Positions 192-33,254 of a stretch of DNA of 37,988 nt are shown one piece after another (the stretch's first letter is position 1; each line of letters begins with the position of its first letter). The notes below the pieces were generated by a model. That model did not search any database. It saw only the letters and a list, made by a program, of their open reading frames with translations, and was not told where the DNA came from. A program made the position numbers and the translations under genes. The stretch covers positions 1 through 37,988 of the forward strand of contig JACOSY010000061.1 of assembly GCA_016178595.1 (NCBI GenBank), read 5' to 3'. Origin of the DNA: Ignavibacteria bacterium (lineage in GTDB: Bacteria > Bacteroidota > Ignavibacteria > UBA10030 > SZUA-254).

Positions 192-3100
192 ATGAAATCA
201 CTGGCTTCCACGTTGTTCTTTGTTGCCGTTGTTGTTCTTATAGCAACGACGTTGAGCGTCACGCAGAACTGCACGCCGACGCCGAACCCTCACATCACCT
301 CGTCATTTACGCCAGACTCGAGCTGCATAAGCAAGAACTCGGCTGGGCTGCCGGACAGACATGACTGTCTCTTCGCGTGCGAGCATCAGTACTCGACGTT
401 TTGCACGGCAATGAATGCCGGCAGCACGTACGCGTGGGTTGTCAGCCCTCCGGCTACAATCGTGTCGGGACAGGGGACGTATTGCGTCACCGTGCTGTGG
501 GGTCCTGCAGGCTCAGGCAATCTTACGGTTACCGAGACAAATTCTTCCGGATGCCAGGGAACCGACAAAGTCTGTATCGAAATCATCCAATCTCCTGTCG
601 CCATGTTTACGGTAGACACGACTGTGTGTAAGAATGTACCTCTCACGTTCACCAACACCTCGATCGGTGGTGCGACGTATTCGTGGAATTTTGGAGATCC
701 GGCCAGCGGAGTGAACAACACCCTGACCACCTATTCGCTAACATCCCCGACTCATACGTACAACACCGGCGGAACGTATACGGTGACGCTTGTTGTTACG
801 AACATCTGTGGCTGCAGTGATTCCGCGACGGCCACCATTCACGTAAGCAACGATCCAGGACCGGAGATCGAGTGCCCTGCAACAGTCTGCGCTTTTTCCA
901 AGGCGTGCTACTCCACGGGCTCCGGTTGTCCTGGAGCGGTATACAATTGGTCCGTCAGTGCCGGCGCTGCGATCATCAGCGGTCTCGGCACCAACAGCAT
1001 CTGTGTGCAATGGGGTAATGGTCCTGTCGGCACGGTTTCTCTCTCCATCTCTAATTGTCCCGGTATCTGTTCCGATACTACAACGGTCAGCATCCCGATC
1101 ATTTCGAACACGGCGACTGTGATCGGTCCGCTTGTTGTATGTCCCGGTGATCTCTCAAGCTACACGGTTCCTACGTGGCCCGGAACGTATTATAGCTGGA
1201 CGCTTTCCGGTGGAGGCACGATGCTTGATAGCGGGTTCTCTCCGACTGTTCAAATCCAGTGGGGATTTACACCCGGTATCTATACATTGAACATTTCATG
1301 GAATAACATTCTCTTGCATTGTGGCGGGAACGCAACGATTCAGGTTGAGGTGAGAAATAAGTTTTCTATCTTCGGTCCGGCAGGTCCGTTCTGCATCGGC
1401 GATTCGTCCTCATACAATGCGAATGCGGTTGCAAACTGGAGCGTTACAGGAGGAACGATCAGTGGAAGCCCATTCAATACAAGTTCCATCACTGTTCATT
1501 GGGCGACATCGGGCACTCAAACAGTTTCCGCGTCTCCCGTCAACGCAACACAATTTTGCAACGCTGCCGATAGTATCAAGGTTGTCGTCGATTCCGTTCC
1601 GAAGGCTCTTTCGATTTCCGGCCCCCAATCGATCTGCGTGGGAGGAACGTATCAGTATACTGCGACGACATCTGGCGCCGGTTACACCGTGTTCTGGACG
1701 GTAATGGGTAGCGGATCGATTTCCGGCTCGAACACCTCGAATCCGGTCAGCGTCCAGTGGACCGGACCGGGAACGATTTCCGTGCAGCAAGTGAAATCAA
1801 CGCCGCCATTCTGTATGTCGGATACGATTTCGCTTTCTGTGAATGTCTTCTCATTCTCAAGTATTTCTGGTCCTGATTCCGTGTGCATGGATCAAACCGT
1901 TTCGTACGTCGTTTTTCCACGCGACACAAATCTCGTTCATACGTGGGCCGTTGTCGATAATCTTAATAATCCTTCGCCGTACGGAAGCATCGTCACAGGA
2001 CAAGGAACCGACAGCATCACGGTTCTCTGGCACGGACCCGGCAACATCACCGTCTATCTCCATGTAACGATTTGCGGTACGACCTACTCGCTGCCCATAA
2101 CGATCTTCCCGAAACCAACACCGACAATAACGATGACGGGACACGTCTGCGATCCGGGTGGATCGGTGGTTCTCACTGCGAGCGGCGGAACGTCGTATGT
2201 GTGGACGCCGGGGGGCGCCAACACGGCATCGATCGTTGTGAATAATTTCAGTGGAACGTACTCAGTCGTAGCGACAGGACCCGGAGGATGCACGGGAATG
2301 GCAAGCATCGTGGTGCCGCACACGCCGGGGCCCATTGCGTCGATCTCAACGCCGAATCCGACGGTGTATTGCGGTCCGCCATATCCACCCATCATCGATA
2401 CGCTCTACGCACTCCAAGGCGCGGGATACTCCTATGTCTGGTCGCCGGGTGGACAAATAACGCCAACCATTGTTGTTAATGCCGTAGGCTCGTACTCTGT
2501 CACCGTGACTGATGTGAATACCGGGTGCATGACAACATCGAATATTATTACTATCGATACGGTCAACTGTCCGTCGGGTGGGTGTATACCCGTTGGCACA
2601 ATCGATTTCACGATAACGACACCGATCTGCAATCCCGTTCAATTTAATGGAACAACTTCCGGAGGGATAACAAATACAATCTGGAATTTTGGCGATCCTG
2701 CCAGTGGAGCGAGCAATACATCTGTGCTCACCAATCCGACTCATCTGTTCACGCAAGCAGGATGGTATACCGTCACGTACAGTGGCATTGATGCAAATGG
2801 CTGCGCGATCAGTGTGAGTCATGCGGTTGCGGTTCCGCTCGCGGCTGATTTCAGTTTTGCGGTTCATTGTGACACGGTACGGTTCACCGACCACTCGACG
2901 TTCCTGCCGCCGAACGCCATCACCTCATGGAATTGGAGTTTCCCCCTCGGGAACCCATCGGCATTCGTCGGGGCAGCCCCTCCTCCCGTTCAATACAGCA
3001 CGTCGGGTCCGCACAGTGTAACGTTGACCGTTTCCAATGGAACATGCACCGTATCGATCACCAAGACTGTCACGACGACCGCACCGCCATCGGCGACGTT

Positions 3101-6050
3101 CACGATGCCGGCGTCGGGGTGTGCCAATAATGACATTGCTATGTCTTCGACCGGGTCAGGTATTTCAACGTGGTCGTGGAATTTTGGCGATGGCGCGACT
3201 TCGGCGATCCCGAACACATCTCATGCCTGGACGTCACCCGGCACCTATACGGTGACGCTCACTGTGGCAGACGCCTTCGGATGTTCGAGCACATCATCGC
3301 AGCAAATTACCATTACGGCTCCAATACCGGGATGCTCGATTAGTCCCGGTGGTCCCATTACGTTCTGTTTACCGGGATCCCAAGTCCTTACTGCATCTCC
3401 GAGTGGAGGAGGATATACGTTCCAATGGTACAAGAATAATGCGGTGATCCCACTGGCGACCTCGAGTACCTACATGGTAACTCAATCCGGAAGCTATACA
3501 GTTGTCATAACCGATCCAAGCGGCTGCAGGTGCTCAGCCGGACCGGTCGTCGTCGTTGCGAACCCGGCACCACCGGCAACGATCATATCGGATAAGCCGC
3601 CCGTCATCTGCGGCCCCGGTTCAATTACGCTCTGTGCACCGCCGGGTAACTACACGTATCTCTGGTCAGATGCGAATGCCACGACGACCCAGTGTCTCCC
3701 GCTTTTCCTCACGTCCGGTGTCTACACCTACACTGTGACCGTGACGGATCCAGCTACCGGTTGCTCGGCAACTTCTGCGCCGTTCACTATCAACGTCTAT
3801 CCTGCTCCTGCACCGCCTACGATTACAACGAGCGGACCGACGACAATCTGCAAGGGCGATTCGGTAAAGCTCACAAGCTCGAGCGCAACAGGAAACATGT
3901 GGAACACGGGTGCGACAACGCAATTCATCTGGGTTCATACTCCGGGCACCTATACGGTGACGGTGACGGATCCAAACGGATGTACTGCAAGCGCCAGCAT
4001 CCAAGTCAAATTCCAATTAATCGACTTCAGTCTCTTCCCGTTCGGATGCGACTCACTTTGTGACACGGTGAAAATTCCGGGCCCAATCGGCCCGTATTTC
4101 GGGTACTACACGTATCAGTGGCTCTACAACGGCAATCCGATTTCGCCGCCAAACGGCACGAACGATACATTGACGCCGGTCGGGAGCGGTACGTATTCTC
4201 TCATTCTTACCGGACCGGCTCCGTCATTCTGCAAAGACACATCAGGACTCTACAACCTGACGCTGAAGCAATGCGATAGCTGCTTTGGGAAAATCTGCGG
4301 CAGGAAATGGAACGACAGCAACGGTAACCACAAATTCAATTACGGAACGGAGGTCGGAATACGGAACTGGAAGATTTGTCTTGTCAAGTGCAACCAGGAC
4401 GGCTATCCGAGTAAAGATACCGTGGCCTGTACGCTCACGGACTCGCTCGGCTTCTATTGCTTCAATAAAGTTCCCTGCGGCTGCTACTGTGTTGTGGAGG
4501 AACATCGTCCCGGATGGGCGCAAACGTGGCCGATTACGCCGCCATACTATTGCCTGACGGTTACCGCCAATTCCGCAACGGAAGGACTGGACTTCGGCAA
4601 CAAGTTCAAGTGGATCAAGATTTGGGCGACGAAGGATACCATCGGTGTGCCGAACGAGAACGTGCTGCCGTCCAATGTCATCTATCCGATCTGCTATCCA
4701 TGGCCGATCAAAATTTCACGTTCGACCGATGGTGGACATACATGGTCGGTTCTCTTCAACGGAGTCCTCACCGATGACATTCAGCCTCTGCCGGTGTGCC
4801 TGCCGGGCAAATACTCTATCGTGCGGAAGCACGTCGGCAATTACACATTCGATCGAATCTACGTTGACGATATACTCTACTCTGACAACGAGGATTCTGC
4901 GGTAGTGGATCTGCCGGACTCGGTGACGGGCGTGTCGATTCTTTTCCTCCAAACATACACACCCGACCAGTCTATCAAGTTCCGCACGTTCACGGCGGCG
5001 CAGCTTGCACGAGACGATCAGGCGAAACCGGTGAAGCGACCCAGACCGGGGAAGCCAATGGTTTTCCCGAACACGGCAAACGTCATCGACGAGATCCTGC
5101 GGCAGCAGCCGGGCATTCTCATTGCTGGTTTGCCGGATCAACACTATAACCCGAAGTTGATAAAAGGATACCTGCAACCCAAATCGCAGGGCGACGTCTT
5201 CAAAACGTTTAACGGCAAAGGAGGCCCGCATACGGGAACACCGCGCGGCTTTGCCTTCGACGTCAATCATAAACTCATCACGAAACGTCAGAAGAGCATG
5301 CCTTCCTCGAAGCATGACAATCTGTTCCTTGCAAATCTCCTTGCGCTCAAGATCAACATCTGGGCAAGCGAACGAGGGAAAACGCCGAGAGGATTCGGTG
5401 ATCTCGTGTACTTGCCGCCGGGCGGCGGCTCGCCCTGGTTCGTCGACGGGCCGGAATGTAAAGTCTCGATGATCGCTGAGGTTGCAGACGAAATGTTCAC
5501 CAACTGGGATCTTGGAGTGCCGGATCAAAAATACCTTGATGTCAACGCGATCATGGAACAGTTGAACGCATCGTTCGCCGGTTCGCTGCCGCTCACGGCA
5601 AATGATACGGGTTCGTGGATCGGCAGTCCGAAGCTCGTGCTCAACGGTGTCAAGCCGCTTTCGGATGTACCGTTCCTCATTCAGGTTGAAGGCGCTCAAT
5701 CGCGATGGAGAACCGATCAACCGGTTATCGCGACGCAGGAACCTGACGAGCCGCTGCTCGACCAGAATTATCCGAACCCGTTCAACCCGACAACGGCAAT
5801 TTCCTTCACGCTGCCCGAGCAATCGATCGTAACGTTGAAGGTGTACGATGTGCTGGGTCAACAAGTGGCGACGCTCATCGACCGGCAGCTCCTCGACGAG
5901 GGCTCGCAGCAAGTGCTCTTCGATGCAACAAAACTCTCCTCGGGCGTCTACTTCTACAGGCTTGTCGCAGAGTCGACGATCATCGACGACGAGGAAGGAG
6001 TGCAGTCAAAGGTCAGCGTCAGCATGAAGAAGATGCTGTTGATGAAATAG
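192..6050 (+). CDS. Giant secreted PKD-repeat protein with T9SS type A sorting domain
   Basis: This is a predicted surface or secreted protein of 1952 residues. It has an N-terminal signal peptide (about residues 1-25, a hydrophobic run after MKS). Then come many Ig/PKD-like repeats. The clearest PKD cores are WNFGDPASG near residues 165 and 830 and WNFGDG near 995. Cys-rich PKD-like repeats fill about 220-680. An SdrD-B-like domain (GRKWNDSNGN) lies at about 1363-1470. A less recognisable region follows at about 1560-1840. The end is a T9SS type A sorting domain from about 1852, starting QNYPNPFNPTT and ending KKMLLMK. Such tails direct export across the outer membrane through the Por machinery, after which the tail is removed. 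The start is supported by AGAAAGGGGAAC just upstream of ATG. It begins only about 50 bases after the IS30 end, so the native promoter may be disrupted. The ligand or role is unknown; adhesion or matrix binding is inferred from the repeats. Confidence 0.9.
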   Translation: MKSLASTLFFVAVVVLIATTLSVTQNCTPTPNPHITSSFTPDSSCISKNSAGLPDRHDCLFACEHQYSTFCTAMNAGSTYAWVVSPPATIVSGQGTYCVTVLWGPAGSGNLTVTETNSSGCQGTDKVCIEIIQSPVAMFTVDTTVCKNVPLTFTNTSIGGATYSWNFGDPASGVNNTLTTYSLTSPTHTYNTGGTYTVTLVVTNICGCSDSATATIHVSNDPGPEIECPATVCAFSKACYSTGSGCPGAVYNWSVSAGAAIISGLGTNSICVQWGNGPVGTVSLSISNCPGICSDTTTVSIPIISNTATVIGPLVVCPGDLSSYTVPTWPGTYYSWTLSGGGTMLDSGFSPTVQIQWGFTPGIYTLNISWNNILLHCGGNATIQVEVRNKFSIFGPAGPFCIGDSSSYNANAVANWSVTGGTISGSPFNTSSITVHWATSGTQTVSASPVNATQFCNAADSIKVVVDSVPKALSISGPQSICVGGTYQYTATTSGAGYTVFWTVMGSGSISGSNTSNPVSVQWTGPGTISVQQVKSTPPFCMSDTISLSVNVFSFSSISGPDSVCMDQTVSYVVFPRDTNLVHTWAVVDNLNNPSPYGSIVTGQGTDSITVLWHGPGNITVYLHVTICGTTYSLPITIFPKPTPTITMTGHVCDPGGSVVLTASGGTSYVWTPGGANTASIVVNNFSGTYSVVATGPGGCTGMASIVVPHTPGPIASISTPNPTVYCGPPYPPIIDTLYALQGAGYSYVWSPGGQITPTIVVNAVGSYSVTVTDVNTGCMTTSNIITIDTVNCPSGGCIPVGTIDFTITTPICNPVQFNGTTSGGITNTIWNFGDPASGASNTSVLTNPTHLFTQAGWYTVTYSGIDANGCAISVSHAVAVPLAADFSFAVHCDTVRFTDHSTFLPPNAITSWNWSFPLGNPSAFVGAAPPPVQYSTSGPHSVTLTVSNGTCTVSITKTVTTTAPPSATFTMPASGCANNDIAMSSTGSGISTWSWNFGDGATSAIPNTSHAWTSPGTYTVTLTVADAFGCSSTSSQQITITAPIPGCSISPGGPITFCLPGSQVLTASPSGGGYTFQWYKNNAVIPLATSSTYMVTQSGSYTVVITDPSGCRCSAGPVVVVANPAPPATIISDKPPVICGPGSITLCAPPGNYTYLWSDANATTTQCLPLFLTSGVYTYTVTVTDPATGCSATSAPFTINVYPAPAPPTITTSGPTTICKGDSVKLTSSSATGNMWNTGATTQFIWVHTPGTYTVTVTDPNGCTASASIQVKFQLIDFSLFPFGCDSLCDTVKIPGPIGPYFGYYTYQWLYNGNPISPPNGTNDTLTPVGSGTYSLILTGPAPSFCKDTSGLYNLTLKQCDSCFGKICGRKWNDSNGNHKFNYGTEVGIRNWKICLVKCNQDGYPSKDTVACTLTDSLGFYCFNKVPCGCYCVVEEHRPGWAQTWPITPPYYCLTVTANSATEGLDFGNKFKWIKIWATKDTIGVPNENVLPSNVIYPICYPWPIKISRSTDGGHTWSVLFNGVLTDDIQPLPVCLPGKYSIVRKHVGNYTFDRIYVDDILYSDNEDSAVVDLPDSVTGVSILFLQTYTPDQSIKFRTFTAAQLARDDQAKPVKRPRPGKPMVFPNTANVIDEILRQQPGILIAGLPDQHYNPKLIKGYLQPKSQGDVFKTFNGKGGPHTGTPRGFAFDVNHKLITKRQKSMPSSKHDNLFLANLLALKINIWASERGKTPRGFGDLVYLPPGGGSPWFVDGPECKVSMIAEVADEMFTNWDLGVPDQKYLDVNAIMEQLNASFAGSLPLTANDTGSWIGSPKLVLNGVKPLSDVPFLIQVEGAQSRWRTDQPVIATQEPDEPLLDQNYPNPFNPTTAISFTLPEQSIVTLKVYDVLGQQVATLIDRQLLDEGSQQVLFDATKLSSGVYFYRLVAESTIIDDEEGVQSKVSVSMKKMLLMK

Positions 6051-12414: not shown

Positions 12415-13314
12415 TTAGAGTCCGAATCCTATGCCAGCGCTGGCGACGGTGACCTTCCCGACATTAATGTCGGCATTCAAATGGAGGATGACGAGGTTGA
12501 GGCTGAGGCCCGCTGTCGCACGAATCTTGTTCTCGCCGTCGATGTCGAGATTCACTACCGTAGGTGGGTTTGAGCCGGTATAGGTGTAACTCAATGACAT
12601 TGTCGAAGTTTCGTACTGAACACCGCCATAGAGTGTGGCGACAGAATACGACTTGCTGATTTGTGCACCGATGTTGAACGCCTTCGCACTGAAGATATCG
12701 CCGATGTCAAGCTTCTGATAGCAAACGCTTGCAGCGAGATCGGCGGGGAATGTCGGGAGGTAACGGCTGATGCTGTGGCGTACGCCGATGCCGAAGAGCG
12801 TAACTTTCGGGAAGTCGTCATGTTCGGGAAGTGGGACATATCGAAGGACGGCCTGCGTTCCAAAAATATTACCGACAGTCAATTGAGGCGAAAGGAATGG
12901 GACAAAACTTGTCTTCACCTGACCGTTCTGATAATGATACTCCATGCCTGGAACAGGACCCTGGACAATTGCGCCAAGATCACCAAAAACCGTTGCTGTC
13001 TGAACAGGATACTGAGGGTACGGTGGATCGGGCGCAGCGGCTGTGTATGTTTTCTCTGCATCACCGATGAGTGTGCCCATGGCAACAAGGCGGACGTTGA
13101 GGTATAACCCCGATTCGCCGATTTCCGCCGAGTTGTAGAGTCCAGAATTCATATTTGCCCCAAAAGCATTGACAAATGGTTGCACGTACCCGCGCACGTT
13201 GTCAGACGAAATTTGTTTGACAGCATCCTCGAACGGGTTCTGAGCACGGATAGTCGTTGTCCCCAGCAGTAGAATGCCGACGAAAAATAACAGGAAGCGA
13301 TGTGCATAAGTCAT
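12415..13314 (-). CDS. DUF6588-like outer-membrane beta-barrel protein
   Basis: This exported protein of 299 residues has a signal peptide ending TIRAQ and a body of alternating hydrophobic and polar strands with frequent Gly and aromatic residues. It ends ASAGIGFGL, like a beta-barrel terminal strand. The arrangement (an N-terminal QPFVNAFGANMNSGLYNSA segment and a long barrel) recalls the DUF6588 family of Bacteroidota, a tentative match from memory. The start at 13314 (MTYAHRF) was chosen because GAAGGAGAT sits just before it; an ATG 16 codons earlier lacks a ribosome site and would spoil the signal peptide. It probably heads a two-gene unit with the lipoprotein. Confidence 0.75.
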   Translation of the reverse strand: MTYAHRFLLFFVGILLLGTTTIRAQNPFEDAVKQISSDNVRGYVQPFVNAFGANMNSGLYNSAEIGESGLYLNVRLVAMGTLIGDAEKTYTAAAPDPPYPQYPVQTATVFGDLGAIVQGPVPGMEYHYQNGQVKTSFVPFLSPQLTVGNIFGTQAVLRYVPLPEHDDFPKVTLFGIGVRHSISRYLPTFPADLAASVCYQKLDIGDIFSAKAFNIGAQISKSYSVATLYGGVQYETSTMSLSYTYTGSNPPTVVNLDIDGENKIRATAGLSLNLVILHLNADINVGKVTVASAGIGFGL

Positions 13315-13505: not shown

Positions 13506-16142
13506 ATGAAGCGAATGACCTATTATCGAATACGTTTACATCGAGGAGTCTATCTCCTGCCACTCATCCTTCTCGTCTGTTTGTGCCTGTTGCTTGCTGG
13601 CTGTGGGTCGAACGAGGAAGAGAAGCTTCGCGATGCCGCCAGTCGTGCTGCGAAGGCACAGGAATTGTTCGACGCTGAACAATACAGCCAGGCGTTTCTT
13701 TACATCAAGGAGGCAATAGCGATGAACGTGGGAATCTCAAATGATACCGCTCTTGCTGAAAACGATCTCCTTGCAGCGCGCTGCCAGCGACAACTTGGTG
13801 AATACGATGCTGCGCTTGCCAGTTACCAGAGTGCAGTCCAGCGTTCACATGGGCTTTCTGATAGAAACCGCGAACGAAAAGCGCTCATCGCACTTGCAGA
13901 GTTCCACTCATTGATGAGTCGTGATAACGATGCACTCACAATCGCAGCGGATGCGGCGACATCTGCAAAACTCTTCGCGAACGTCGAAGATGCATACAGA
14001 GCAATGACGATAGTTGCGACTGTATGCCACAAGCTCCAACGATACGATAAGGAAGTCAAAACTCTCGAAGAGTTGCTCGTTCTTGATAGCCTCAGCCGGA
14101 AAGAGCGAGATAGAAACCATCTTTACGCATTGCTTTTCCGGGCAGCAACATCGGCGAATAAGGGCATCCGATCGAACGATGTGTTCAATCGCTGGCTCAG
14201 CGCATCCAAGCGCACCAGCGATGACCGAGGACTCGGTACGGCATATTACGAACTCGGGCGCTACTACGCAACAGCGAACCGGCCGGATAGTGCACTCCGT
14301 TCCTTCTCAATTGCTCTTGAAAAACTCTCCAGCGTGGATGACCGGCTTCTCCAGGCTGATGTTTGGACAGCCATCGGGTATGCCGCTTACAATCAACACC
14401 AATATGAGAACGCCAGGACGTATTTTTCCAATGCTCTTGAGCGCACGGGGCAGCTCGGCGGATTTGCACCAACGCAACTCCTTCGCCTTTCTATTCTTTC
14501 GTGCGAATGGAAACTCAATAGCGCAAGCCCATCGCAGGAATACCTGGCGCATATCTTTGCACTAAGAGATTCTTGCAAGCGTAATGGTTTCTGGCGCGGT
14601 GAAGCGTTTACGCTCATTTTGAGCGGTATGGTCCACGAGAAATTCAACGATCAAGCCTCAGCCATTCAATCCTCTCGAGAAGCATTGCGCATCATCGATC
14701 GAACAGTGCCTGGTGCCGAGACCGACGAGCGGGACTTTGCAGATGTATTTTTTGCGGGCGAGAGGACCGACTGGTATAGCACGTGCGTGCAGCTCGAATG
14801 TGCACGAGGGAATGCCGACAGTGCCTTTACGGTTCTGGAGCAAAAGAACCTTCGCGATCTCATAGATTTCTTCTCGCGGACAAACCTGAAGACGCCGGAC
14901 GCAAAAATCAATCAGTCGATTGAAAACGTCGAGTGGCAGTATAATGAAATACGATTGAATGAGCGTGATGTACTCGATGAATTGCGCCGCTACGGCCGAA
15001 AGTCGGACGACCGATTGAATTCACTCGTGAATCGTTATGCTCAGCACCGTGAAAATCTCACAAAATGCATTCAGGCTTTGCAAGAAGTGAGTCCGAATTT
15101 TGGCAGGTTATTCTCCCTGGAGCCACTCACCGTCCGATCAATTCGCAAGACACTTCCTGCACAGAGTGTCCTTGTTGAATTTGCGCCAACGGCAAATACT
15201 CTTTATAGCATCATCATCCGACCCGATACCGCGTACGTCCGAAAAACAAACGCGACAAGCCAGTACCTCTCGTCAGTCATCCGAGATTATATGCAGCTTA
15301 TGGGCGAGCTTCGCCTCACAACGTATGGTCTGAGGATGAGCGAGCCTGCCGCTCTCAAGCGCATCAATGAACTATCTTCCGTTCTACACACACTCCTTAT
15401 AGCTCCCATTCTATCCGATATTCGTAATGCGCAAAAACTCTATGTCGTGTTGCCGGAGGAATTCGAATGGCTTCCGGTGCACACGCTCCGCGGCGAAGGG
15501 GGTGCACTGGGCGAGCGGGTCAATGTCAGTTACCTGCCGACTGCATCGGCGCTTCTTTTCCAGCAGCACCAGGAACGATGGGCGAAGAAGATTGTTGGCG
15601 TGGGTCATCCGGGTACGACAGGATGGGATGTCGAGTACGAATTGAAAGACATCCGCAGTTTCTTCGACGGAGTCGGTCTTCTCTTCGATACTGCGGCAAC
15701 ACTGAACCATCTGGTGGATTCTACATACGATGTGCTGCATATTGCTGCGGAGTTCTACCTCGACCGTGCAGTACCCGAGAAATCGCACGCGGTTCTCGCG
15801 GATGAAGCAAGACCGGTGGGATTACGAAACGTCCAGCTTGGGGAGATGCTGAAAATTCCGGCGCCGCAGACACTTGTCTTCAGCAATATCTCGGCCACGC
15901 CCGGCGGGTTGTCGCGCTATGCACCGCTTGCATTTCTGGCAAATGGCACTCGAACGGTGATTGCGTCGATGTGGCAAGGGGACCGTCGAGCAAAGAAAGC
16001 GTTCGGCGAAGGACTCTATACGAATTTATTTGGCGCGGTGCCAGCAGGCGAAGCATATTATCGGGCGATAGTCGGGATGGCAAAGCGCGATGAAATGTCG
16101 CACGTCCAACGTTGGGGAATGTACTACCAGTTCGGGAAGTAG
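13506..16142 (+). CDS. TPR-CHAT lipoprotein with a degenerate (pseudo-)caspase site
   Basis: This 878-residue protein has a lipobox (LLAGC, Cys33), so it is probably anchored to a membrane. TPR-like helical repeats run from about residue 40 to 420, and a coiled helical linker extends to about 540. A C-terminal CHAT domain (caspase HetF-associated) covers about 550-875. The CHAT fold is recognisable from SVLVEFAPT, ILSDIRNAQKLYVVLPEEFEWLP, VSYLPTASALL and VIASMWQGD. In active CHAT proteases the catalytic His lies in a motif like LHIATHG and the Cys in VLSACxTG. Here those positions read LHIAAEF (744-750) and VFSNISAT (791-798), so both catalytic residues appear to be lost. This suggests a binding or scaffold role. 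Start: ATG 13506; an ATG three codons later is also possible. It converges on the next gene with one base between the stops. Confidence 0.88.
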   Translation: MKRMTYYRIRLHRGVYLLPLILLVCLCLLLAGCGSNEEEKLRDAASRAAKAQELFDAEQYSQAFLYIKEAIAMNVGISNDTALAENDLLAARCQRQLGEYDAALASYQSAVQRSHGLSDRNRERKALIALAEFHSLMSRDNDALTIAADAATSAKLFANVEDAYRAMTIVATVCHKLQRYDKEVKTLEELLVLDSLSRKERDRNHLYALLFRAATSANKGIRSNDVFNRWLSASKRTSDDRGLGTAYYELGRYYATANRPDSALRSFSIALEKLSSVDDRLLQADVWTAIGYAAYNQHQYENARTYFSNALERTGQLGGFAPTQLLRLSILSCEWKLNSASPSQEYLAHIFALRDSCKRNGFWRGEAFTLILSGMVHEKFNDQASAIQSSREALRIIDRTVPGAETDERDFADVFFAGERTDWYSTCVQLECARGNADSAFTVLEQKNLRDLIDFFSRTNLKTPDAKINQSIENVEWQYNEIRLNERDVLDELRRYGRKSDDRLNSLVNRYAQHRENLTKCIQALQEVSPNFGRLFSLEPLTVRSIRKTLPAQSVLVEFAPTANTLYSIIIRPDTAYVRKTNATSQYLSSVIRDYMQLMGELRLTTYGLRMSEPAALKRINELSSVLHTLLIAPILSDIRNAQKLYVVLPEEFEWLPVHTLRGEGGALGERVNVSYLPTASALLFQQHQERWAKKIVGVGHPGTTGWDVEYELKDIRSFFDGVGLLFDTAATLNHLVDSTYDVLHIAAEFYLDRAVPEKSHAVLADEARPVGLRNVQLGEMLKIPAPQTLVFSNISATPGGLSRYAPLAFLANGTRTVIASMWQGDRRAKKAFGEGLYTNLFGAVPAGEAYYRAIVGMAKRDEMSHVQRWGMYYQFGK

Positions 16143-16143: not shown

Positions 16144-17040
16144 CTACCAGCTCCGTTTCACTTTGACGCTGCCGAGTCCGGCGTCAATGCGAATGTTCAT
16201 CCTCCCCGGTGCACTCCGGTAGTTCGGACTAAAGTAGTTGTTCTCTCCTTGCTCGGTAAAACTGCGGTCAAGGTTGATGTGTGCGAGGAGACTTTTCTCG
16301 TAAATGACTTTCACGCCAATATTTTCCGGCACACGGACGACGAGCGAACCGAGTCCGACTTCAATATCAACATCGACCTCCTTCTTCAACTCGCCGCTGA
16401 AATCGAGCGTGTAGCTACCAACTCCTCCTTCAAACTTGAGATGGTTGAAGTTTGCGTTGCAGAGGCCCTCGCCATCGAACTTGCTCAGGCCGGACTCGAT
16501 CGTCAAATCTTCGATCACATTCTTATTCGGCTTATTGAACTGTAAGGAAACCGAGCTCGCACCAGCCGACAATTTCAAGTCCTTCACATTCAAGCCTGTC
16601 ATATCGAAGTCACCCTTTCCCAGTCCGAGTCCCAGCTCGAATGAAATCGGTATTCCGTCAGGAAAACGCATCTCCCACGTATTCGACTTGAAGCCTTCAA
16701 AGTTGATGGAATGCTTCTTCGCATGCGACCTCACATCAGCACTCGTGTTCACCTCGAGATAACCAACCTCGTCCCGTACCGTGTAGTTGATGTAATCGCC
16801 GAGGTCGTTGCCTCTGTCAGTATCAATGTCAGAATCGAAGGCAAAGTGAGGTCTCCCACGCGCAATGGAAACATCGCCGAAACCGGCATCGATAGTCACT
16901 TTCATCTCTCGTTCGTTTGTGATTGGAATTTCCTTGTGAAAGTGTTGGGAAGAGAAGAACGAGAAACCACCGAGTACAATAACGAGTAGAGCGAGCGAAA
17001 GGATAAGAATATAGAGAAACTTCGGCGTCATGGATTTCAC
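16144..17040 (-). CDS. Membrane-anchored toast-rack (LiaF-like/DUF2154-type) protein
   Basis: This 298-residue protein has one N-terminal membrane helix (about residues 8-30) followed by a long exported beta-rich region. The region has repeating GLGLGKG, GGVGSYTLDFSG, VGLGSLVVRVPE and DAGLGSVKVKR turns. This is the right-handed beta-solenoid pattern of toast-rack/LiaF-like proteins, some of which regulate cell-envelope stress systems. It begins 33 bases after the ECF sigma factor on the same strand, so it is likely co-transcribed. It could be that sigma factor's membrane partner or target (inference). No zinc-finger anti-sigma motif is seen. An ATG three codons downstream is an alternative start. 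Confidence 0.8.
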   Translation of the reverse strand: MKSMTPKFLYILILSLALLVIVLGGFSFFSSQHFHKEIPITNEREMKVTIDAGFGDVSIARGRPHFAFDSDIDTDRGNDLGDYINYTVRDEVGYLEVNTSADVRSHAKKHSINFEGFKSNTWEMRFPDGIPISFELGLGLGKGDFDMTGLNVKDLKLSAGASSVSLQFNKPNKNVIEDLTIESGLSKFDGEGLCNANFNHLKFEGGVGSYTLDFSGELKKEVDVDIEVGLGSLVVRVPENIGVKVIYEKSLLAHINLDRSFTEQGENNYFSPNYRSAPGRMNIRIDAGLGSVKVKRSW

Positions 17041-17073: not shown

Positions 17074-17757
17074 TCAGTAGTGAGAGATCTTGTCACGGAG
17101 GTATTTGTTGAGAAGTTCGCGTGCGCGGAAGATGTGTGCTTTGACCGTGCCAATCGGCAGCTTGAGGATTTTGGCGATCTCGGCGTAATCGCGTTCTTCG
17201 GTATGCCGGAGAGTAATAACACGCTTGTATTTTTCCGGAAGTTTATTGATCGCTTCTTCGATGAGGGTAGTGCGTTGCTTCTGGATGATCGACTTGTCAG
17301 GTTGATAGGTTGTATCCGGAAGCTCGAAGTGATAATCACTCTCCTCCATAGCGATGGGCTTATCGATGGAAAACGTTTCGAGCTTCCTTTTACGAATGTA
17401 ATCGATACTGCTATTGGTCGCAATCTTATAAAGCCAGGTAGAGAAAGCGTATTCTTCATTGAAATTCTTGAGCGAAGCGAACGCTTTGACGAACACTTCT
17501 TGCGTCAGGTCTTCGACCTGGCCCCTCTCATGAACAATGCGATAGATGAGGTTGTAGATCGCATCATGATACTTCTTCATCAAATGTTTGTATGCTGCTT
17601 GATTGCCGTCGAGCGCTGCGTGGATGAGTCGTGCATCTTCTTTCCGGGATTCAACTTTGCCGCTGCTCTGGGGAGGTCGTCGAATTGCTGTGGCGGAGTC
17701 GGGAATGTGCTGGTGTGGAAGATTGCGCGGTGCTTTCTGTGATTTTCTCTGCGGCAT
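17074..17757 (-). CDS. ECF-type RNA polymerase sigma factor
   Basis: This sigma-70 family factor of about 227 residues would direct RNA polymerase to a special promoter set. Region 2 is clear (YRIVHERGQVEDLTQEVFVK then FSTWLYKIATNSSIDYIRKR). Region 4 has the helix-turn-helix (LPEKYKRVITLRH...YAEIAKILKLPIGTVKAHIF). The N-terminal 35 residues are basic and Pro-rich, an unusual extension. The ATG at 17757 is preferred, but its GAGGA lies directly against it. A TTG at 17778 gives 234 residues. The downstream toast-rack gene replaces the usual anti-sigma partner. It diverges from tmk. Confidence 0.92.
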   Translation of the reverse strand: MPQRKSQKAPRNLPHQHIPDSATAIRRPPQSSGKVESRKEDARLIHAALDGNQAAYKHLMKKYHDAIYNLIYRIVHERGQVEDLTQEVFVKAFASLKNFNEEYAFSTWLYKIATNSSIDYIRKRKLETFSIDKPIAMEESDYHFELPDTTYQPDKSIIQKQRTTLIEEAINKLPEKYKRVITLRHTEERDYAEIAKILKLPIGTVKAHIFRARELLNKYLRDKISHY

Positions 17758-17824
17758 TCCTCGTCTGTGTGTACTCAAGCTTGGTTAAAGTAACGAAAAA
17801 ATGTGCGAGAGGCAAGCAGCCTAT

Positions 17825-20954: not shown

Positions 20955-22370
20955 TCACCTCTTCATCATCACCGCATACACCCCGAACGCCACCGCGAAT
21001 CCGACGAACCAGGCGTAATCATACAAGAATCTCAGATCGGATACAAACAAGCCAATCAATGCAACGACGACTCCACAGGCCAGCGCGACGATGGCTTTGA
21101 TGTTGAAGCCGTTTGTGTACTCGTACTGTCCGCCGCGGATGTAGAGGTCTTTGACGTTCAATAAACGTTTTCGAACGAGGAAGTAGTCGGCAATGAGTAC
21201 GCCGGCAATCGGCCCCAAAAATCCTGAATAACCGACAAGCCAGCCGAAAATATACGTGCCATAATCGGAGAGAAGTTTCCACGGCATCATGACGATGCCG
21301 ATGAAGGCCGTGATGAGACCGCCGGTCCTGAAGCTAATTTTTCGCGGTGCCACGTTCGCGAAGTCGTTTGCAGGCGAGACGACGTTCGCCGCGATATTCG
21401 TCGTCAGCGTTGCGACAAGAAGCGAGATCATCGCGAGGATGATGATGAAGGGATTATCGAACTTCGCAAGAAGCGCGACCGGATCCCAGATCGCTTCACC
21501 GAAAATAATGATGGTTGCCGATGTCACAGCGACGCCAATGAACGAGTACAACGTCATCGTGGGCGGAAGGCCGATTGCCTGTCCGAGCATTTGCGCCCGC
21601 TGGCTTTTGGCGTAACGCGAGAAGTCGGGAATGTTCAACGAGAGTGTTGCCCAGAATCCCACCATGCCGGTGAGCGATGGAACGAAAAATTTCCAAAACT
21701 CACCGAGGGTCTGAAACTTGCTCGGCTGCGAGAGAATCGGTCCCCAGCCGCCGCCTCGTTGATACGCCCAGAAGAGAAGCGCCAGTCCGACGACAATCAG
21801 AAACGGTGCAGAGAGCGACTCCAGCCAGCGAATCGATTCCGTCCCTTTGACGATGAAGTACACATTCATTCCCCAAAAGATCGCGAAACTCATCCACGGT
21901 CCGAAGCCGAAGCTTGCCCACGATGGGATGAGAGCGACGAGGAGTGCGTTTAATGCTTGTCCGCCAATCCACGTTTGGATGCCGAACCAACCGCACGCAA
22001 CGATTGCACGCAGAAGCGCCGGAACATTGGAACCGAGCGTTCCGAAGGATGCGCGCGCGAGCACGGGAAATGGGATGCCATACTTCGTGCCGGCGTGGGC
22101 ATTCAGGATCATGGGGATGAGGACGATGAGATTGCCGAGCGTGATGGTGAGGATCGCCTGCCACCAGTTCATCCCGCCGGCAATAAGACCGCTGGCGAGC
22201 ATGTAGGTGGGAATGCAGACAGACATCCCGATCCAAAGTGCGGCGATGTTATAAGTCGACCATGTGCGCTGTGCAAGTCGGGTTGGGGCAATGTCTTCAT
22301 TGATGAGTGAGCTATCGTTGAACTGGGAAACATCGATCTCGACCAGATCGTCTCTGCGGGCGTTGTGCAT
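20955..22370 (-). CDS. NCS1-family nucleobase:cation symporter
   Basis: This is an integral membrane carrier of 471 residues with about 12 hydrophobic segments, the LeuT-fold NCS1 family (Mhp1, PucI and relatives). Family features include the N-terminal NEDIAPTRLAQRTWSTYNIA, AGTKYGIPFPVLARASFG, and WFGIQTWIGGQAL, part of the substrate path. Members take up uracil, allantoin, hydantoins, cytosine or purines with Na+ or H+. The dihydropyrimidinase and preA/preT genes 9-15 kb away make uracil, thymine or a hydantoin a reasonable guess. GAGGAGA precedes the ATG. It starts 50 bases after the TPR-membrane genes on the same strand. Confidence 0.92.
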   Translation of the reverse strand: MHNARRDDLVEIDVSQFNDSSLINEDIAPTRLAQRTWSTYNIAALWIGMSVCIPTYMLASGLIAGGMNWWQAILTITLGNLIVLIPMILNAHAGTKYGIPFPVLARASFGTLGSNVPALLRAIVACGWFGIQTWIGGQALNALLVALIPSWASFGFGPWMSFAIFWGMNVYFIVKGTESIRWLESLSAPFLIVVGLALLFWAYQRGGGWGPILSQPSKFQTLGEFWKFFVPSLTGMVGFWATLSLNIPDFSRYAKSQRAQMLGQAIGLPPTMTLYSFIGVAVTSATIIIFGEAIWDPVALLAKFDNPFIIILAMISLLVATLTTNIAANVVSPANDFANVAPRKISFRTGGLITAFIGIVMMPWKLLSDYGTYIFGWLVGYSGFLGPIAGVLIADYFLVRKRLLNVKDLYIRGGQYEYTNGFNIKAIVALACGVVVALIGLFVSDLRFLYDYAWFVGFAVAFGVYAVMMKR

Positions 22371-22420
22371 CTGCGGGTCTCCTCAATGATGATGAATACT
22401 AAAACGGTTTTGCGTCTCTC

Positions 22421-24394
22421 TCAATGTGATCGCTTCGATTCCTGTAACAGACTCTCTGCTTCTGCGACGTTCAACTGCGCAGCTTTCTGAAAATATTCAT
22501 GTGCGAGTTTCTTGTTTCCTCTGTCATTATAGGTATTCCCCAGGTTGTAGTATGCTTCTCCGTACATCGGGTTTAGCGCAATGGCCTGCTTGTACTGAGT
22601 GATCGCATGGTCGATATTTCCTTGCTGTGCGTAGACGCTTCCGAGGTTGTTGTGCGCGTTCGCGTAGAACGAGTCGATCGAGATCGCTTTCCCGTAAAAC
22701 CGGGCTGCGTCACCGAGATCATCCTGTTTGAAGTATGCATTCCCGAGATTCAAACAGAAATTTCGATACACGATCCGTAGGCTGGTATCGTTGGAGGTAT
22801 GGGAAAGCCACTGCTCGTATGTGTTGATCATCTCTTCGATCTTCGCATGGCCGCCTTGTGTCCAGCCGGTGATCAGGTTCTCATAACCACGGAGATCGTT
22901 TGGGAATAGCTTGTTGAACCGCTTCCACGATTCAATTGCAAGGCTATCATTTTTTATTTGCCGATAATACTGTGCCCGGTGAAGACTTGCAGTATAATAG
23001 CTGCCCTGGGAAACCGTTCGTGTATCCAGGAGCGCTTCGTATCGTGCGAGCGTCGCATCGGCCTTTGCGTTCACACTCCAGTATGAGACTGATTGAAGAA
23101 GCGTGAGAATGATTGCCAGTGCCCAGAAGCGCACTGTCAGCTGGTCGGTCGTTTCACTCACGAGCAGTATCGCGAGGAGTATCGCAAGAAATGCGTATGA
23201 TGCAAACACGTCCCAATCACGTGCCGCACCCAGGTCGAACTTTATGACAATGAGGACGAGGAGTATCGGAACAAGTGCTGCCGCTGCAAATCGTTTCAGA
23301 TCCGTACCGAAAATACCGTGCAGTGTGCCCTTCAGTGCAGCGAGGAAGAGAAGAAACAATGCCGGTAATGCAATCAAGACCAGAAGATTGGCAAGGTCAA
23401 GAACATGGAACGGTGAGAGGAGCGTGTACGCCTGCGATTCGGCATTGGCAGGGTCGGTCGGTTGCGTCAGGGACAAATAATGATGATGGGGAACATAGGA
23501 GTAATACTGACTTACGTCGAAATTTATGGCAACGAGAATACCAACGAAGACCGCTGCGAGCACGCCGAATCCAGTCAACACAGCCTTCAATCCCCGCTGG
23601 CGGTATTCCCGGTATGCGAGGAAAAGGAGTGATGGCAGAAGTACGACCGTCATGTAATGCGTCAGCGCCATCAAGAGAAACGCAATGGCCGCAAGTGTAA
23701 AGTACTTGTCTCTCCGGATGCAGATCGCAGCGGTAAGGATGTACGAGGAAAGTGCGACGAGTACTACAGGGTACGTTTCAACGTAACCGAAAAAGAGCTG
23801 CATCGAAGGGAGAACCAGGACAAGAAGGGACCCAAGCAATCGCGCCGTCGGATCGGCAATGGATATTTTTAGAGTGAAGTAGGATATGACGACAAAAGAG
23901 ACTCCGAGAACAAGATCGGCAATAAGAAACCCGTGCAGAAACTCGGTGTAGGTCATCGGTACACCGATAATGTTGAAGATAATCCAGAAATAAACAGTGG
24001 CGATCGGCTCGTCTCGGAAATACAACGGTGCGGTGCCGTGAAATGCATCGGAGAAATTTTTCACCAGGAAAAAACCATCGCCAAGAAGTGGAGCTTCAAT
24101 CCGAAAAAAGATCGCGAGACCCGCAAATGATCCGATCATGAGAACCAACATGAGAACAGGATGTGCGTCGAAGTAACCTGCAAGCCTGCGGACGAAGGGC
24201 ACCACATCTGCCGTGCTCAGAATTATTACAGCAAACAGAGCAACGGCGATTGCCGTGATGAAGAGCCACGCCGGCAAAAAGCCGAACGAGTGAAACCCCC
24301 ATGTAAAGCTTGTGGGAAAGAAATATCCGACGAGCTGAAGTCCAACAAACGCTGACGCGATGGCAAGAAGAATGCGAGTAGTCTGATTCACCAT
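22421..24394 (-). CDS. GT-C-like multi-spanning membrane protein with C-terminal TPRs (copy 2)
   Basis: This 657-residue protein has roughly 12-14 membrane segments (residues 5-445) followed by TPR repeats (about 450-650; the last three are textbook, for example NAHNNLGSVYAQQGNIDHAI). The layout resembles eukaryotic TMTC O-mannosyltransferases and bacterial GT-C glycosyltransferases. In the first outer loop, PLLGDGFF and RDEPIA supply acidic residues like those of GT-C enzymes. FFGYVETYPVV and FDLGAARDWDV are also present. Its neighbour has the same three motifs, so the pair is a tandem duplication. It overlaps that neighbour by 7 bases. Sugar transfer is inferred, not shown. Confidence 0.8.
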   Translation of the reverse strand: MVNQTTRILLAIASAFVGLQLVGYFFPTSFTWGFHSFGFLPAWLFITAIAVALFAVIILSTADVVPFVRRLAGYFDAHPVLMLVLMIGSFAGLAIFFRIEAPLLGDGFFLVKNFSDAFHGTAPLYFRDEPIATVYFWIIFNIIGVPMTYTEFLHGFLIADLVLGVSFVVISYFTLKISIADPTARLLGSLLVLVLPSMQLFFGYVETYPVVLVALSSYILTAAICIRRDKYFTLAAIAFLLMALTHYMTVVLLPSLLFLAYREYRQRGLKAVLTGFGVLAAVFVGILVAINFDVSQYYSYVPHHHYLSLTQPTDPANAESQAYTLLSPFHVLDLANLLVLIALPALFLLFLAALKGTLHGIFGTDLKRFAAAALVPILLVLIVIKFDLGAARDWDVFASYAFLAILLAILLVSETTDQLTVRFWALAIILTLLQSVSYWSVNAKADATLARYEALLDTRTVSQGSYYTASLHRAQYYRQIKNDSLAIESWKRFNKLFPNDLRGYENLITGWTQGGHAKIEEMINTYEQWLSHTSNDTSLRIVYRNFCLNLGNAYFKQDDLGDAARFYGKAISIDSFYANAHNNLGSVYAQQGNIDHAITQYKQAIALNPMYGEAYYNLGNTYNDRGNKKLAHEYFQKAAQLNVAEAESLLQESKRSH

Positions 24395-26508
24395 GAGTAT
24401 CCGTTCTGTGTGAGGACGTGTTGCGCTGCTGCGCTTCCAAGATGAGCAGCCTGCCGGTACATTGACATGGCATCCTTCTTCTTCCCGACTGCCTCCAGCG
24501 CCTGTCCCATCTGCTCGTAGGCCCCAACGTATGAGGAATCGAGCGCGATGGCTTTTGCGAAGCAGGGTATCGAAACGTTTGGCTGACCCATTGCCATGTA
24601 CACGCTCCCGATGTTCCGGTAGCCGCGTGCGTACATCGAATCAATCACGGTAGCTTTCCGGTAATACACGAGTGCCGAATCGTACAAGCCCTGATTATGA
24701 TAGAGAAGGCCGAGGTTGTTATACGCGGCCAGAAGTTTTGGATTGAGGTCGATAGCGCGCCGGTATTGCGCCGAGGCATCCGACGGTCGTCCGGCATTGA
24801 ATGAGGCTGCGGCCGCAAACAGGCAAAAGTTGGCGTAATCGTTCATCGTGGCCGTATCACTGGGAGCGAGCTGCAACCACCGTTCGTAGGCATCGGCGAT
24901 TGCGGGATACGATCGTTCTCCCGTCTCCCAATACGATTTCGCAAGCTTGGCATAACCACGAGTGTCGTTGGGAAATTGCGTAACGTAACGTTGCCAGATT
25001 GTAACCATGCTGTCTGCTTCTTTTCTGTAGTACCGATACATAGTGAGGTGGTAGGATGTCTGATAATAGCCGCTCTGCGGCATGATTCGCCTGTCCATGA
25101 GCGACGCCACCCGCATAACGCTCGCCGCTTCTGTCGCGTTGATGGTAAAGTATGGCCATGAAGAGAGAGCTGTTGCGACGATGACAATGCCCATCGAGCG
25201 AACTCTTGCCATACTTCCATCCTGCAAGAAAAGGAAGGCGGCACACAGTGCGACCATGGCGAAGTAGGGAGCCGTCACATCCCAGTCTTTCGCCATCCCG
25301 AGGTCGAACTTTGCAGCCATCAGGAAGAGGAAGAATGGAATCGCACAAAGGAACAATGCCACGTGCACCCGGGTCGCGAACAACTCCGACGATTTCCGTA
25401 TGCTCAGTGAGAGTAGAAGCAGTGCGCCGGGCGCCATCAAGAGCAGCAAGTTTGCGAGGTCGAGGACATGATATGGAGCGAGCAGCGAGTATGCTGCGTA
25501 CTGATCGGTCGCATCGCTGAATGAGAGCAGATGGCTTCGCTCCGCATCGGGAACAAAGCGGTGGAACTCGAATCCAACCGCTGCGAAGATCGCGGCTATA
25601 ACAGTTGCTCCCGATAGAACACCAATTCCTACGGGCAATAATCCATTCTCTTTGTACTCGATATATGCGAGATAGAATAACAATGGCAGAAGAAGGACGC
25701 CGAGGTAATGCACAAAAATCAGAAGGATGAATACGGGCGCGACTACCCACAATGGAATCCGATGCCGAAGATACAGCAACACGACGAGCAGCGTCACGGA
25801 GAGAGCCAACAGCACGACGGCGTACGATTCAGCATAGCCGAACAAGAGCTGGAGAGAGGGAGATACGCATAGGTACAGGAAGACGAGAAGTCTTCTGACG
25901 TCATAGCTCTCCGGGAAGAGGAGCAGTACGGAAAAGGAGGTCGTAACGATACAACAGTAGCCGAGGAGAAGCTCACCGATGAAAATGGCGCTCATAATCT
26001 CCGTGTGTGATGATGCGTGAAGGAGACTTGCCATCGCGTAGAGGAATGCAAACGCGAGCGGCTCGTTGCCGAACGAGAGACGGTGTTCGCCCTTGATGGT
26101 ATTCTCAAGGTTGTTCGTAAACGTGAAGCTATCACCAAGAAGCGGAACCTGTATCCGGAACGCTATTGCAATCCCGGTGAAGAGTGCGCACGTAAGAACG
26201 ATGAAGCGCCACTGCTTCTCTTCCATTACTTTCATGATCGGTCGCAGCAATTTCTCCATGTTGCTTGTTGTGCAGTAATACAGGCCGACGAGTGTCGCAA
26301 CAACATACACGATCAGGTACGGGAACGGGAGAAACCCCAAGAAGTGAATACCCCAGAGTAATCCGCTCGGATAAAAGTAGCCGGCGACGTGCAAGGCAAG
26401 GAGTACGAGCGAGAACGCGACACTGATAGAGACGAGAGAGTTGTTACCCGACGCGTCTGTGTCACTGATGGACGTAATGATCTGATGCTGAGTAGTTGCG
26501 ATACTCAC
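24388..26508 (-). CDS. GT-C-like multi-spanning membrane protein with C-terminal TPRs (copy 1)
   Basis: This 706-residue paralogue of the next gene has an about 25-residue polar N-terminal extension and then a dozen or more membrane segments. It carries the same landmarks (PLLGDSFTFTNN, GNEPLAF, LLFGYAESYAVVL, FDLGMAKDWDVTAPYF). At least four TPR units lie from about residue 500, including AAYNNLGLLYHNQGLYDSAL. The start is a GTG at 26508 without a ribosome site, 9 bases after the DUF1028 gene, so it is probably translated by coupling. It overlaps the following copy by 7 bases. A GT-C glycosyltransferase role is inferred from the layout and loop acidic residues; no sugar-donor enzyme is nearby. 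Confidence 0.8.
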   Translation of the reverse strand: MSIATTQHQIITSISDTDASGNNSLVSISVAFSLVLLALHVAGYFYPSGLLWGIHFLGFLPFPYLIVYVVATLVGLYYCTTSNMEKLLRPIMKVMEEKQWRFIVLTCALFTGIAIAFRIQVPLLGDSFTFTNNLENTIKGEHRLSFGNEPLAFAFLYAMASLLHASSHTEIMSAIFIGELLLGYCCIVTTSFSVLLLFPESYDVRRLLVFLYLCVSPSLQLLFGYAESYAVVLLALSVTLLVVLLYLRHRIPLWVVAPVFILLIFVHYLGVLLLPLLFYLAYIEYKENGLLPVGIGVLSGATVIAAIFAAVGFEFHRFVPDAERSHLLSFSDATDQYAAYSLLAPYHVLDLANLLLLMAPGALLLLSLSIRKSSELFATRVHVALFLCAIPFFLFLMAAKFDLGMAKDWDVTAPYFAMVALCAAFLFLQDGSMARVRSMGIVIVATALSSWPYFTINATEAASVMRVASLMDRRIMPQSGYYQTSYHLTMYRYYRKEADSMVTIWQRYVTQFPNDTRGYAKLAKSYWETGERSYPAIADAYERWLQLAPSDTATMNDYANFCLFAAAASFNAGRPSDASAQYRRAIDLNPKLLAAYNNLGLLYHNQGLYDSALVYYRKATVIDSMYARGYRNIGSVYMAMGQPNVSIPCFAKAIALDSSYVGAYEQMGQALEAVGKKKDAMSMYRQAAHLGSAAAQHVLTQNGYSW

Positions 26509-26517
26509 GGTGTACGA

Positions 26518-27501
26518 TTACTTTTTTCCTGCAATGCCGAGAATTTTCTTTAATCCCTCTTCATCCACCTTCAGAAGATCTACCGTTGGCAAGCGTGGTG
26601 TCAGCTCCGCCCAGTTCGGATCGGCTGCGAAGATTTCCTTGAAGAGAGGGAGCGATTGGTCGAGTCGTCCGGCATTGACGAGCGCAACTGCCGTCCAGTA
26701 TTTCATTTCGAGATTGTCGGGCATCATGTTCATGGCGGTGCCGTACTCTTTGAGCGCGCCATCGATATCGTTGTGCTCGGTGGCGAGGTCGCCGGCATTC
26801 ATGTGCTGGTATGCCCGGTGGACATTGACGACGCGGCGGAGCTCTTTGAGCGGTTCCGGGTTATCTTCGACGCGGAGATCCATGATGCGGTCCTGCCATG
26901 GCTTGCCCGTTGGTTTTCCGCTCACGATGAGTATTGCAGCAGATTGTTTCCCGCGGATGTCTCCGCCGACGGACTGCGCCGCATCGAGTGCTGCAAGCAT
27001 CCGATCAGCGAGATCACCCCTTGTTTCGCGATACGCTTTCGCCATTGCAGGCCAGACTTTGTCGTTGAGCATCAAGTTTGCTTCGACGGTGAATTGTTCA
27101 CCTTCGATGTGGCCTGCGGAAGGGATGCATTTCGAGCCCGTATGTGCGGCAACGGTTCCTCTCGCATCCGTCATGGCAACCTGGCGAACATCTTTCCCCG
27201 GATCGGAAGCAAGTAACCCATCGAGTGCTTGCCGTGCCGTCTTGCCGGCGCGCATGAGATCGAGTCCAAGCGGACCATACGCCGGATCGACGAACGATTG
27301 CGTTGCCACTGCACCAACGCCCGCTTCCGCCCACGGCACAAGCGGACCGACAGAGAACCAATGCGACTGCACGGCGACGCCGAGCTCGCCGGTAACCGAA
27401 TCGCGAGCGACGATCGAAAACGTGTGCACCGGACGGTCTTGCGCCCGGAGTGTTGTGATAAGAAGTATCGCGAATATTAGCACACTCATTTGTTGTTTCA
27501 T
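26518..27501 (-). CDS. Exported DUF1028 (Ntn-hydrolase-like) protein fused to TPRs
   Basis: This 327-residue protein has a signal peptide ending TLRAQ, then a DUF1028 domain (about 25-215) that starts HTFSIVARDSVTGELGVAVQS and contains GVGAVATQSFVDPAYGP. DUF1028 proteins are thought to resemble Ntn hydrolases, with Thr of TFSIVA as the likely nucleophile. Here that Thr lies about five residues after the expected signal cleavage, so extra trimming would be needed. The C-terminal third contains TPR-like helices (ALKEYGTAMNMMPDNLEMKY). The start at 27501 is fixed by GGAGGTTAT directly upstream; an earlier ATG would spoil the signal peptide. It leads the row with the two TPR membrane genes. The substrate is unknown. 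Confidence 0.87.
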   Translation of the reverse strand: MKQQMSVLIFAILLITTLRAQDRPVHTFSIVARDSVTGELGVAVQSHWFSVGPLVPWAEAGVGAVATQSFVDPAYGPLGLDLMRAGKTARQALDGLLASDPGKDVRQVAMTDARGTVAAHTGSKCIPSAGHIEGEQFTVEANLMLNDKVWPAMAKAYRETRGDLADRMLAALDAAQSVGGDIRGKQSAAILIVSGKPTGKPWQDRIMDLRVEDNPEPLKELRRVVNVHRAYQHMNAGDLATEHNDIDGALKEYGTAMNMMPDNLEMKYWTAVALVNAGRLDQSLPLFKEIFAADPNWAELTPRLPTVDLLKVDEEGLKKILGIAGKK

Positions 27502-27675
27502 ATAACCTCCATTCAATGTGTTTGTCAACGACCTCACCCGCAGCACTCTTCTGCCGGAGAGGATGAAAAGCGAAATTTTATAGGATGAGGCGACATTGTT
27601 TACATGCGAACCGGAAGTAAAATAGAAAAATTCTGAAGGAAGGTCAATGGCTGGATATAAATGTGGAGACCGATC

Positions 27676-28500
27676 TTACTGTTTGTGGCCTAGTTCCTTG
27701 ATCTTTGACTTCACTTGTTGGATTGTTTGATCGTCTGCGCCGAATTCTTCGAGAGAGTGGAGGTACAGCGCCATCTCTGCAGCGGCAGCAGGATTATCGC
27801 CATTCGCCTCGAGACAGCGGGCGATATCTTGATGAACAGTATAGAGCCACACGTCCATATCTTCCGGCAACTCACCGATACGGAGAACTTCGCGGTAGTG
27901 CATGATTGCATCATTCCAACGCTGGAGAAACTCGTTCGCCTGTGCAAGGTCGTAATGCGCCTGACGGTTGTTCGAATCGAGACGGACGATCGTTTGCAGG
28001 TGAGGCAGTGCCGCTTCGGAGCGTTCCTTTGTCAACGGTTTCTCAGCACCGTGTAGCAACACGCCAACCAACTCTTCGCGTGCAAAGATACTCGTCGGTG
28101 CTCGCTCGACCGCTCGGTATAACTCTCGTTCGCCCGCCGCCCATTGCCCCTGCTGTCGAAAAAGTTGTGCCTTGCCGATATAGGCTTCCGCGCACGACGA
28201 ATCGAGACGCAGTGCGGCGCCGAATAATGAATCGGCTGAGAGTATGTGGTTTTCCTCGAGTGCAATCAATCCTAGATATGCCAGTGACGCTGCATGATTC
28301 GGATGCGATTGGCTGATGGAGAGAAATTCATTCCTGGCTTCTGCGAGCGACTCGCCCGTATCGTCGTGCTCGTTGAAAAGATTGATCGCTTTATTGAATC
28401 GAGCGGTGAACGCCGTATCCTATTGAGCCGTAACGCAGCTTACGATGATCAGGCTGACGGCGCAGTAGCACAGAGTTTTTATGATGGAAGATCCGTTCAT
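27676..28500 (-). pseudogene. Exported TPR protein gene broken by an in-frame amber codon
   Basis: From an ATG at 28500 the frame encodes a signal peptide (MNGSSIIKTLCYCAV...VSCVTAQ, 26 codons), then a TAG at 28422-28420. The same frame stays open for 247 more sense codons to 27676. The part after TAG reads DTAFTARFNKAINLFNEHDD and then clear TPR helices up to ELGHKQ. The signal peptide runs straight into the mature region and other exported proteins here have AQ at this site. The TAG is therefore most simply a CAG-to-TAG change in an intact gene of 275 codons. A TTG at 28269 could restart translation of 197 residues without a signal. A sequencing error or amber read-through are the alternatives. 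Confidence 0.75.
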
Positions 28501-28625
28501 TCGTTGGTGTGGAGTTTCCTGTTCTTTTGTTCGATCAACTCGCCGAGTTTTTCATCTATCGTTTTTCTCCTCAGCGGGCAAAGGAAGGAGTTACTTGCTA
28601 ACCCATCACGTTTGTCGATCCTGCC

Positions 28626-28765
28626 TCACCGGTACGCATCCTTCCTGTGTCGGACGGCGATAATATCGACGATCTCATTCTTGTCAAGAACTTGACGGTT
28701 CGTGCGTCGAGAGCTTCGAGTTCTTTGCGAGCAGCCCGAGTGAATGTTACAGTGTATTTACGCAC
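28626..28765 (-). pseudogene. RelE/ParE-type toxin gene with internal deletion
   Basis: A GTG at 28765, overlapping the end of the antitoxin's original frame, starts RKYTVTFTRAARKELEALDA, a typical RelE N-terminus. After RTVK the frame changes, and the sequence continues in another frame as LDKNEIVDIIAVRHRKDAYR with a TGA at 28628-28626, a typical RelE C-terminus. About 40-45 residues between the two, including the central strands, are missing. The toxin cannot be functional. It pairs with the frameshifted antitoxin just upstream. Confidence 0.75.
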
Positions 28766-28944: not shown

Positions 28945-29006
28945 AGAACATTCTCCTTGAGCTTCTTCAACATTTTTTACATGATCTATCCAGAAAATGT
29001 ACTGAT

Positions 29007-29912: not shown

Positions 29913-29922
29913 AACGAAATTC

Positions 29923-30398: not shown

Positions 30399-30523
30399 TG
30401 CACGATTCCTTAATGTGAAGTGGACACAATGAAATATACGATTCTGGTAAGAAATTCAAAATTGCCTGCCCAGTTTAAGAGTATGTGAATTTTTGATCAT
30501 TAAGAAAGATCAGCATGGATGCA

Positions 30524-33241: not shown

Positions 33242-33254
33242 GCAACGGGAAAAC

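Follow-up and report, generated by a model that had tools for sequence, protein, structure and literature searches.

A putatively lipid-anchored TPR-CHAT protein with a predicted loss of protease activity in an order of Ignavibacteria

An 878-aa open reading frame in the window (the whole stretch of 37,988 nucleotides that was analyzed) raises the question of what a CHAT domain does in a lipoprotein in which neither catalytic residue is found at its expected place. The sequence-only reading had described a lipid-anchored TPR-CHAT protein that seems to be a pseudoprotease, and had proposed that it became a sensor or scaffold on the envelope, perhaps linked to the ECF/toast-rack pair that it faces.

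Domain architecture and predicted fold

The gene and its parts are as follows:

13506..16142, + strand: predicted TPR-CHAT pseudoprotease lipoprotein, an ORF of 878 aa with an ATG start and no internal stop
13506..13604, + strand: lipoprotein signal peptide with the lipobox LLAGC and Cys33 (codon 13602-13604)
13608..14765, + strand: TPR superhelix, approximately residues 35-420, assigned by Pfam TPR matches, paired helices in the model and a TPR-domain structural match (Z about 26)
15129..16139, + strand: pseudo-CHAT (caspase-like) domain, residues 542-878, assigned by Pfam CHAT and by a model matched to separase and Craspase TPR-CHAT
15624..15662, + strand: WDVEYELKDIRSF, residues 707-719, the most conserved run of the pseudo-CHAT family

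The description as a TPR-CHAT lipoprotein was borne out. The lipobox Cys stands behind a signal peptide, as in bacterial lipoproteins, and 44 of the 47 family rows keep a Cys in that alignment column, the three exceptions being truncated or late-started. About 10 TPR-like hairpins follow (TPR_12, 5e-12), and the CHAT family profile (PF12770) matched residues 623-877 with E=2.7e-20 and a score of 73.4 bits (cut-off 24). This protein was the only CHAT match in the source genome. Sequence searches of the PDB, run with the protein as well as with full-length profiles, gave TPR proteins, and no CHAT chain, among the best matches listed.

The structure prediction and superposition that the sequence-only reading had called for were performed with an AlphaFold2 model built from 47 aligned sequences (mean pLDDT 91.8, pTM 0.89). 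Residues 542-878 matched two caspase-like CHAT folds, that of the Craspase TPR-CHAT chains (Z about 25) and that of the protease domain of separase (5fc2; Z 24.6, 3.2 A over 301 residues); the TPR part matched LGN-type TPRs, and the fold also matched Myxococcus xanthus DdvA (8rot and 8rw5). As modeled, the caspase-like fold of the protein is intact. Unlike the window protein, separase, on which the CHAT part superposes, is an active protease, with a role in chromosome segregation. The Craspase protein Csx29 has the same order of TPRs followed by CHAT, but it keeps the His-Cys pair, is cytoplasmic and is activated by RNA with Cas7-11, whereas the window protein has a lipobox and no dyad. A Pfam scan found no Cas families among the window proteins scanned, and an Rfam scan of the window gave no match. 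In a promoter and terminator scan, whose results were set aside, promoters were no commoner than in shuffles, and terminators numbered 10 against 5.5 +/- 2.5.

Loss and conservation of the catalytic site

The His and Cys columns were fixed by aligning the CHAT domain with 17 canonical CHATs from the same class, which were chosen by their HG and C motifs, so that their 17/17 dyad holds by construction. The alignment placed the two segments named in the sequence-only reading at these columns:

15735..15755, + strand: LHIAAEF, catalytic-His segment, residues 744-750, with E749 (15750-15752) in the His column
15876..15899, + strand: VFSNISAT, catalytic-Cys segment, residues 791-798, with I795 (15888-15890) in the Cys column

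E749 thus replaces the His of the A[TS]HG segment of active CHATs, and I795 the Cys of the S[AS]C segment. Nearly all family rows are non-His at the first column. In 52 family rows from ECF-selected loci, a few of them masked or cut at the dyad site, one row had His in the His column, together with a residue other than Cys in the Cys column, and no row had Cys there. A complete dyad was carried by 0 of about 50 members of the same order and by 0 of 4 members of the group f9, which by its group code belongs to another order of the same class and has E and S at the two columns. The same loss was seen in 30 homologues retrieved with the protein itself, a set that has genomes in common with the ECF-selected one. 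The loss is therefore a conserved one, in the protein's own order and in f9. The sequence-only reading would have failed had other residues supplied the His-Cys pair; the CHAT domain of the window protein (542-878) contains no Cys at all, 25 of the 47 aligned members likewise have none there, and no Cys-rich column exists in the domain that could substitute. Judged from these alignments, the 878-aa protein is a pseudoprotease.

The CHAT domain was the best conserved region of the family (mean column entropy 2.18 versus 2.69 for the TPR part). Omega in five close pairs was 0.03-0.16 for CHAT and 0.10-0.17 for the rest of the protein, values that are rough because dS is near or above 1 in most pairs; in these pairs, purifying selection acts on the CHAT domain no less strongly than on the TPR part. 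Protein length is stable at about 850-900 aa. In the phylogeny, the inactive proteins, including those of f9, formed one clade on a long stem (SH-aLRT 100), with long branches near the tree base flagged. This topology suggests that the dyad was lost a single time, on the long, fully supported stem. Given this single clade of inactive proteins and the purifying selection that acts on their CHAT domain, the data point to an ancient, maintained pseudoprotease rather than a decayed gene.

At phylum scale, strong full-length matches in the sample drawn were found only within the protein's own order; the f9 members were found in other searches, and a genome contig search with the single protein as query gave no match. 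The named relatives are metagenome assemblies of Ignavibacteria/Bacteroidota. Several relatives are without the CHAT gene, some genera having lost it, and therefore CHAT is not essential everywhere.

No conserved non-catalytic CHAT family was found in the literature searches made, and few, if any, seem to have been described. The closest precedents would be the pseudo-orthocaspases, as non-catalytic proteins, and Myxococcus DdvA, as a TPR-CHAT protein in sigma-factor control with the dyad kept. Like the window family, pseudo-orthocaspases are bacterial caspase-fold proteins with His-Cys replaced and retained in evolution; unlike it, they are of the p20/C14 type, not CHAT, have another architecture and occur mostly in Cyanobacteria and Alphaproteobacteria (PMC6426788). 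An order-wide lipid-anchored pseudoprotease would mean that the CHAT fold can be retained for binding alone, and it calls for caution against annotating dead-CHAT genes as proteases or cell-death effectors.

Gene neighborhood and probable role

Three neighboring genes bear on the role of the protein:

12415..13314, - strand: DUF6588 protein, predicted outer-membrane beta-barrel and candidate partner, divergent from CHAT here (Pfam 1.1e-47; model and fold matches; gene order)
16144..17040, - strand: toast-rack (LiaF_C/DUF4097-like) protein, convergent neighbor of CHAT
17074..17778, - strand: ECF sigma factor, on the same strand as toast-rack and just upstream of it

The most likely role of the pseudo-CHAT protein is that of an envelope-anchored protein-binding scaffold or sensor; the earlier proposal of such a role stands as the best reading, drawn from the anatomy of the protein. 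Because the dead form has been retained across the order under strong selection, a binding scaffold in the envelope is probable, rather than an enzyme. From anatomy and gene order, we favor with reasonable, though not strong, confidence a lineage-specific, catalytically dead TPR-CHAT lipoprotein that is anchored in the envelope and acts by binding, not cutting. The protein would be exported and lipid-anchored to the envelope, and a peptide or protein would be held in its TPR superhelix. A second docking or ligand site, capping the superhelix, may be formed by the conserved surface of the pseudo-CHAT domain (H659, W707, E712, D715, R717, N813, K831 and E835). The partner would most likely be an envelope neighbor, the DUF6588 barrel first and toast-rack second, and the pseudo-CHAT lipoprotein family thereby offers a testable set of envelope partners.

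The DUF6588 model is beta-barrel-like with a signal-like N-terminal helix, and its best Foldseek matches were outer-membrane proteins, at low TM-score. In many members (several families) and in f9, its gene directly precedes CHAT on the same strand; in the family to which the window belongs, the two genes are divergent in most members. With equal or better positional support, DUF6588 appears at least as good a candidate partner as the ECF/toast-rack pair. The C25 (gingipain/PorU-like) protease of the source genome (L211) may be another candidate. Regulation of a CHAT or C14 paralogue is unlikely in the source genome, because no other CHAT and no C14 caspase were found there. In f9 (L172, L173 and L175), CHAT is followed by a protein of approximately 770 aa whose start resembles that of a carboxypeptidase-regulatory/TonB-receptor type outer-membrane protein.

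The protein does face the ECF/toast-rack pair, tail to tail, with 1 bp between the CHAT stop at 16142 and the toast-rack ORF end at 16144. Of 20 contexts that were chosen by CHAT within the order, 19 show the same arrangement downstream of CHAT (exception L035); counts from the larger locus set are biased toward CHAT/ECF linkage, because that set was selected by ECF. CHAT, toast-rack, ecf and DUF6588 remain together despite changed flanks (L047 and L049), and the CHAT/toast-rack/ECF order persists where adk and tmk have been lost. As gene order the link is real, but it is not obligatory. The ecf and toast-rack genes occur without CHAT in relatives from the same family and from f2, with toast-rack directly adjoining DUF6588 in some, and in f9 CHAT lies behind DUF6588 near gdpd/adk, with the toast-rack gene on another contig. 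Part of the order may be plain synteny, because flanking adk, gdpd and tmk are also largely kept.

A lipoprotein that senses the envelope state and signals through toast-rack to the sigma factor, as a split analogue of DdvA, is an unlikely explanation on this evidence. DdvA, an anti-sigma factor, has an extracytoplasmic TPR-CHAT part (PMC4374960; PDB titles, fold match), and thus combines TPR and CHAT in one ECF-linked envelope protein whose fold the model matches. Toast-rack proteins, moreover, have been proposed as hubs that assemble membrane stress-signaling complexes, and argued to be intracellular (PMC11237479), unlike the family members here, whose N-termini look exported by eye. However, DdvA is a transmembrane protein and retains H and C in the aligned segment (ATHG and ACEGG), whereas the window protein has only a 32-residue lipoprotein signal ahead of its TPRs, with neither a transmembrane helix nor an anti-sigma domain. 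The CHAT and toast-rack/ECF genes are convergent and form no operon. Compared by eye, the upstream regions of ecf and CHAT look different, and no common ECF-type motif was seen upstream of ecf, CHAT and DUF6588. The further step, that the non-catalytic CHAT subfamily acts as a receptor at the envelope for an ECF/toast-rack stress pathway of Ignavibacteria-type bacteria, a protease fold turned to signal binding, is quite unlikely.

Residual alternatives and further observations

It is very improbable that the protein is a protease whose catalytic pair has migrated or been replaced, for instance by a Ser-based one. Of 47 rows, 40 keep Ser793 and 45 keep His659, but Ser793 lies two residues ahead of the Cys column and aligns to the structural Ser of the LSAC segment of active CHATs. 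The substrate loop behind the Cys column (GEG..GL.R in active CHATs) is shortened in the window protein, and replacement of Cys627 by Ala or Ser abolished cleavage by Craspase (PMC9729208). A decaying remnant without function, which the loss of the gene in some genera might suggest, can practically be dismissed in view of the absence of stops, the stable length, omega well below 1 and strong conservation across the order.

PADLOC gave only weak TPR and incidental matches. A second, weakly CHAT-like family of the order turned out to consist of WD40-like proteins whose C14-type caspase domain retains AGHG and DACHSG. Secreted-looking WD40-like/C14 proteins were seen at L180:2911-5364 and L181:4165-6609, in relatives from f4 and f6 within the order, and are absent from the source genome. 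Elsewhere in the window, positions 192-6050 encode a PKD-repeat protein of 1952 aa that carries a Por_Secre_tail domain, used for sorting in type IX secretion, and 20955-37552 holds a cytosine/purine permease, an amidohydrolase and a dihydroorotate-dehydrogenase-like Fe-S protein with a pyridine-nucleotide oxidoreductase partner, a set that resembles reductive pyrimidine breakdown.
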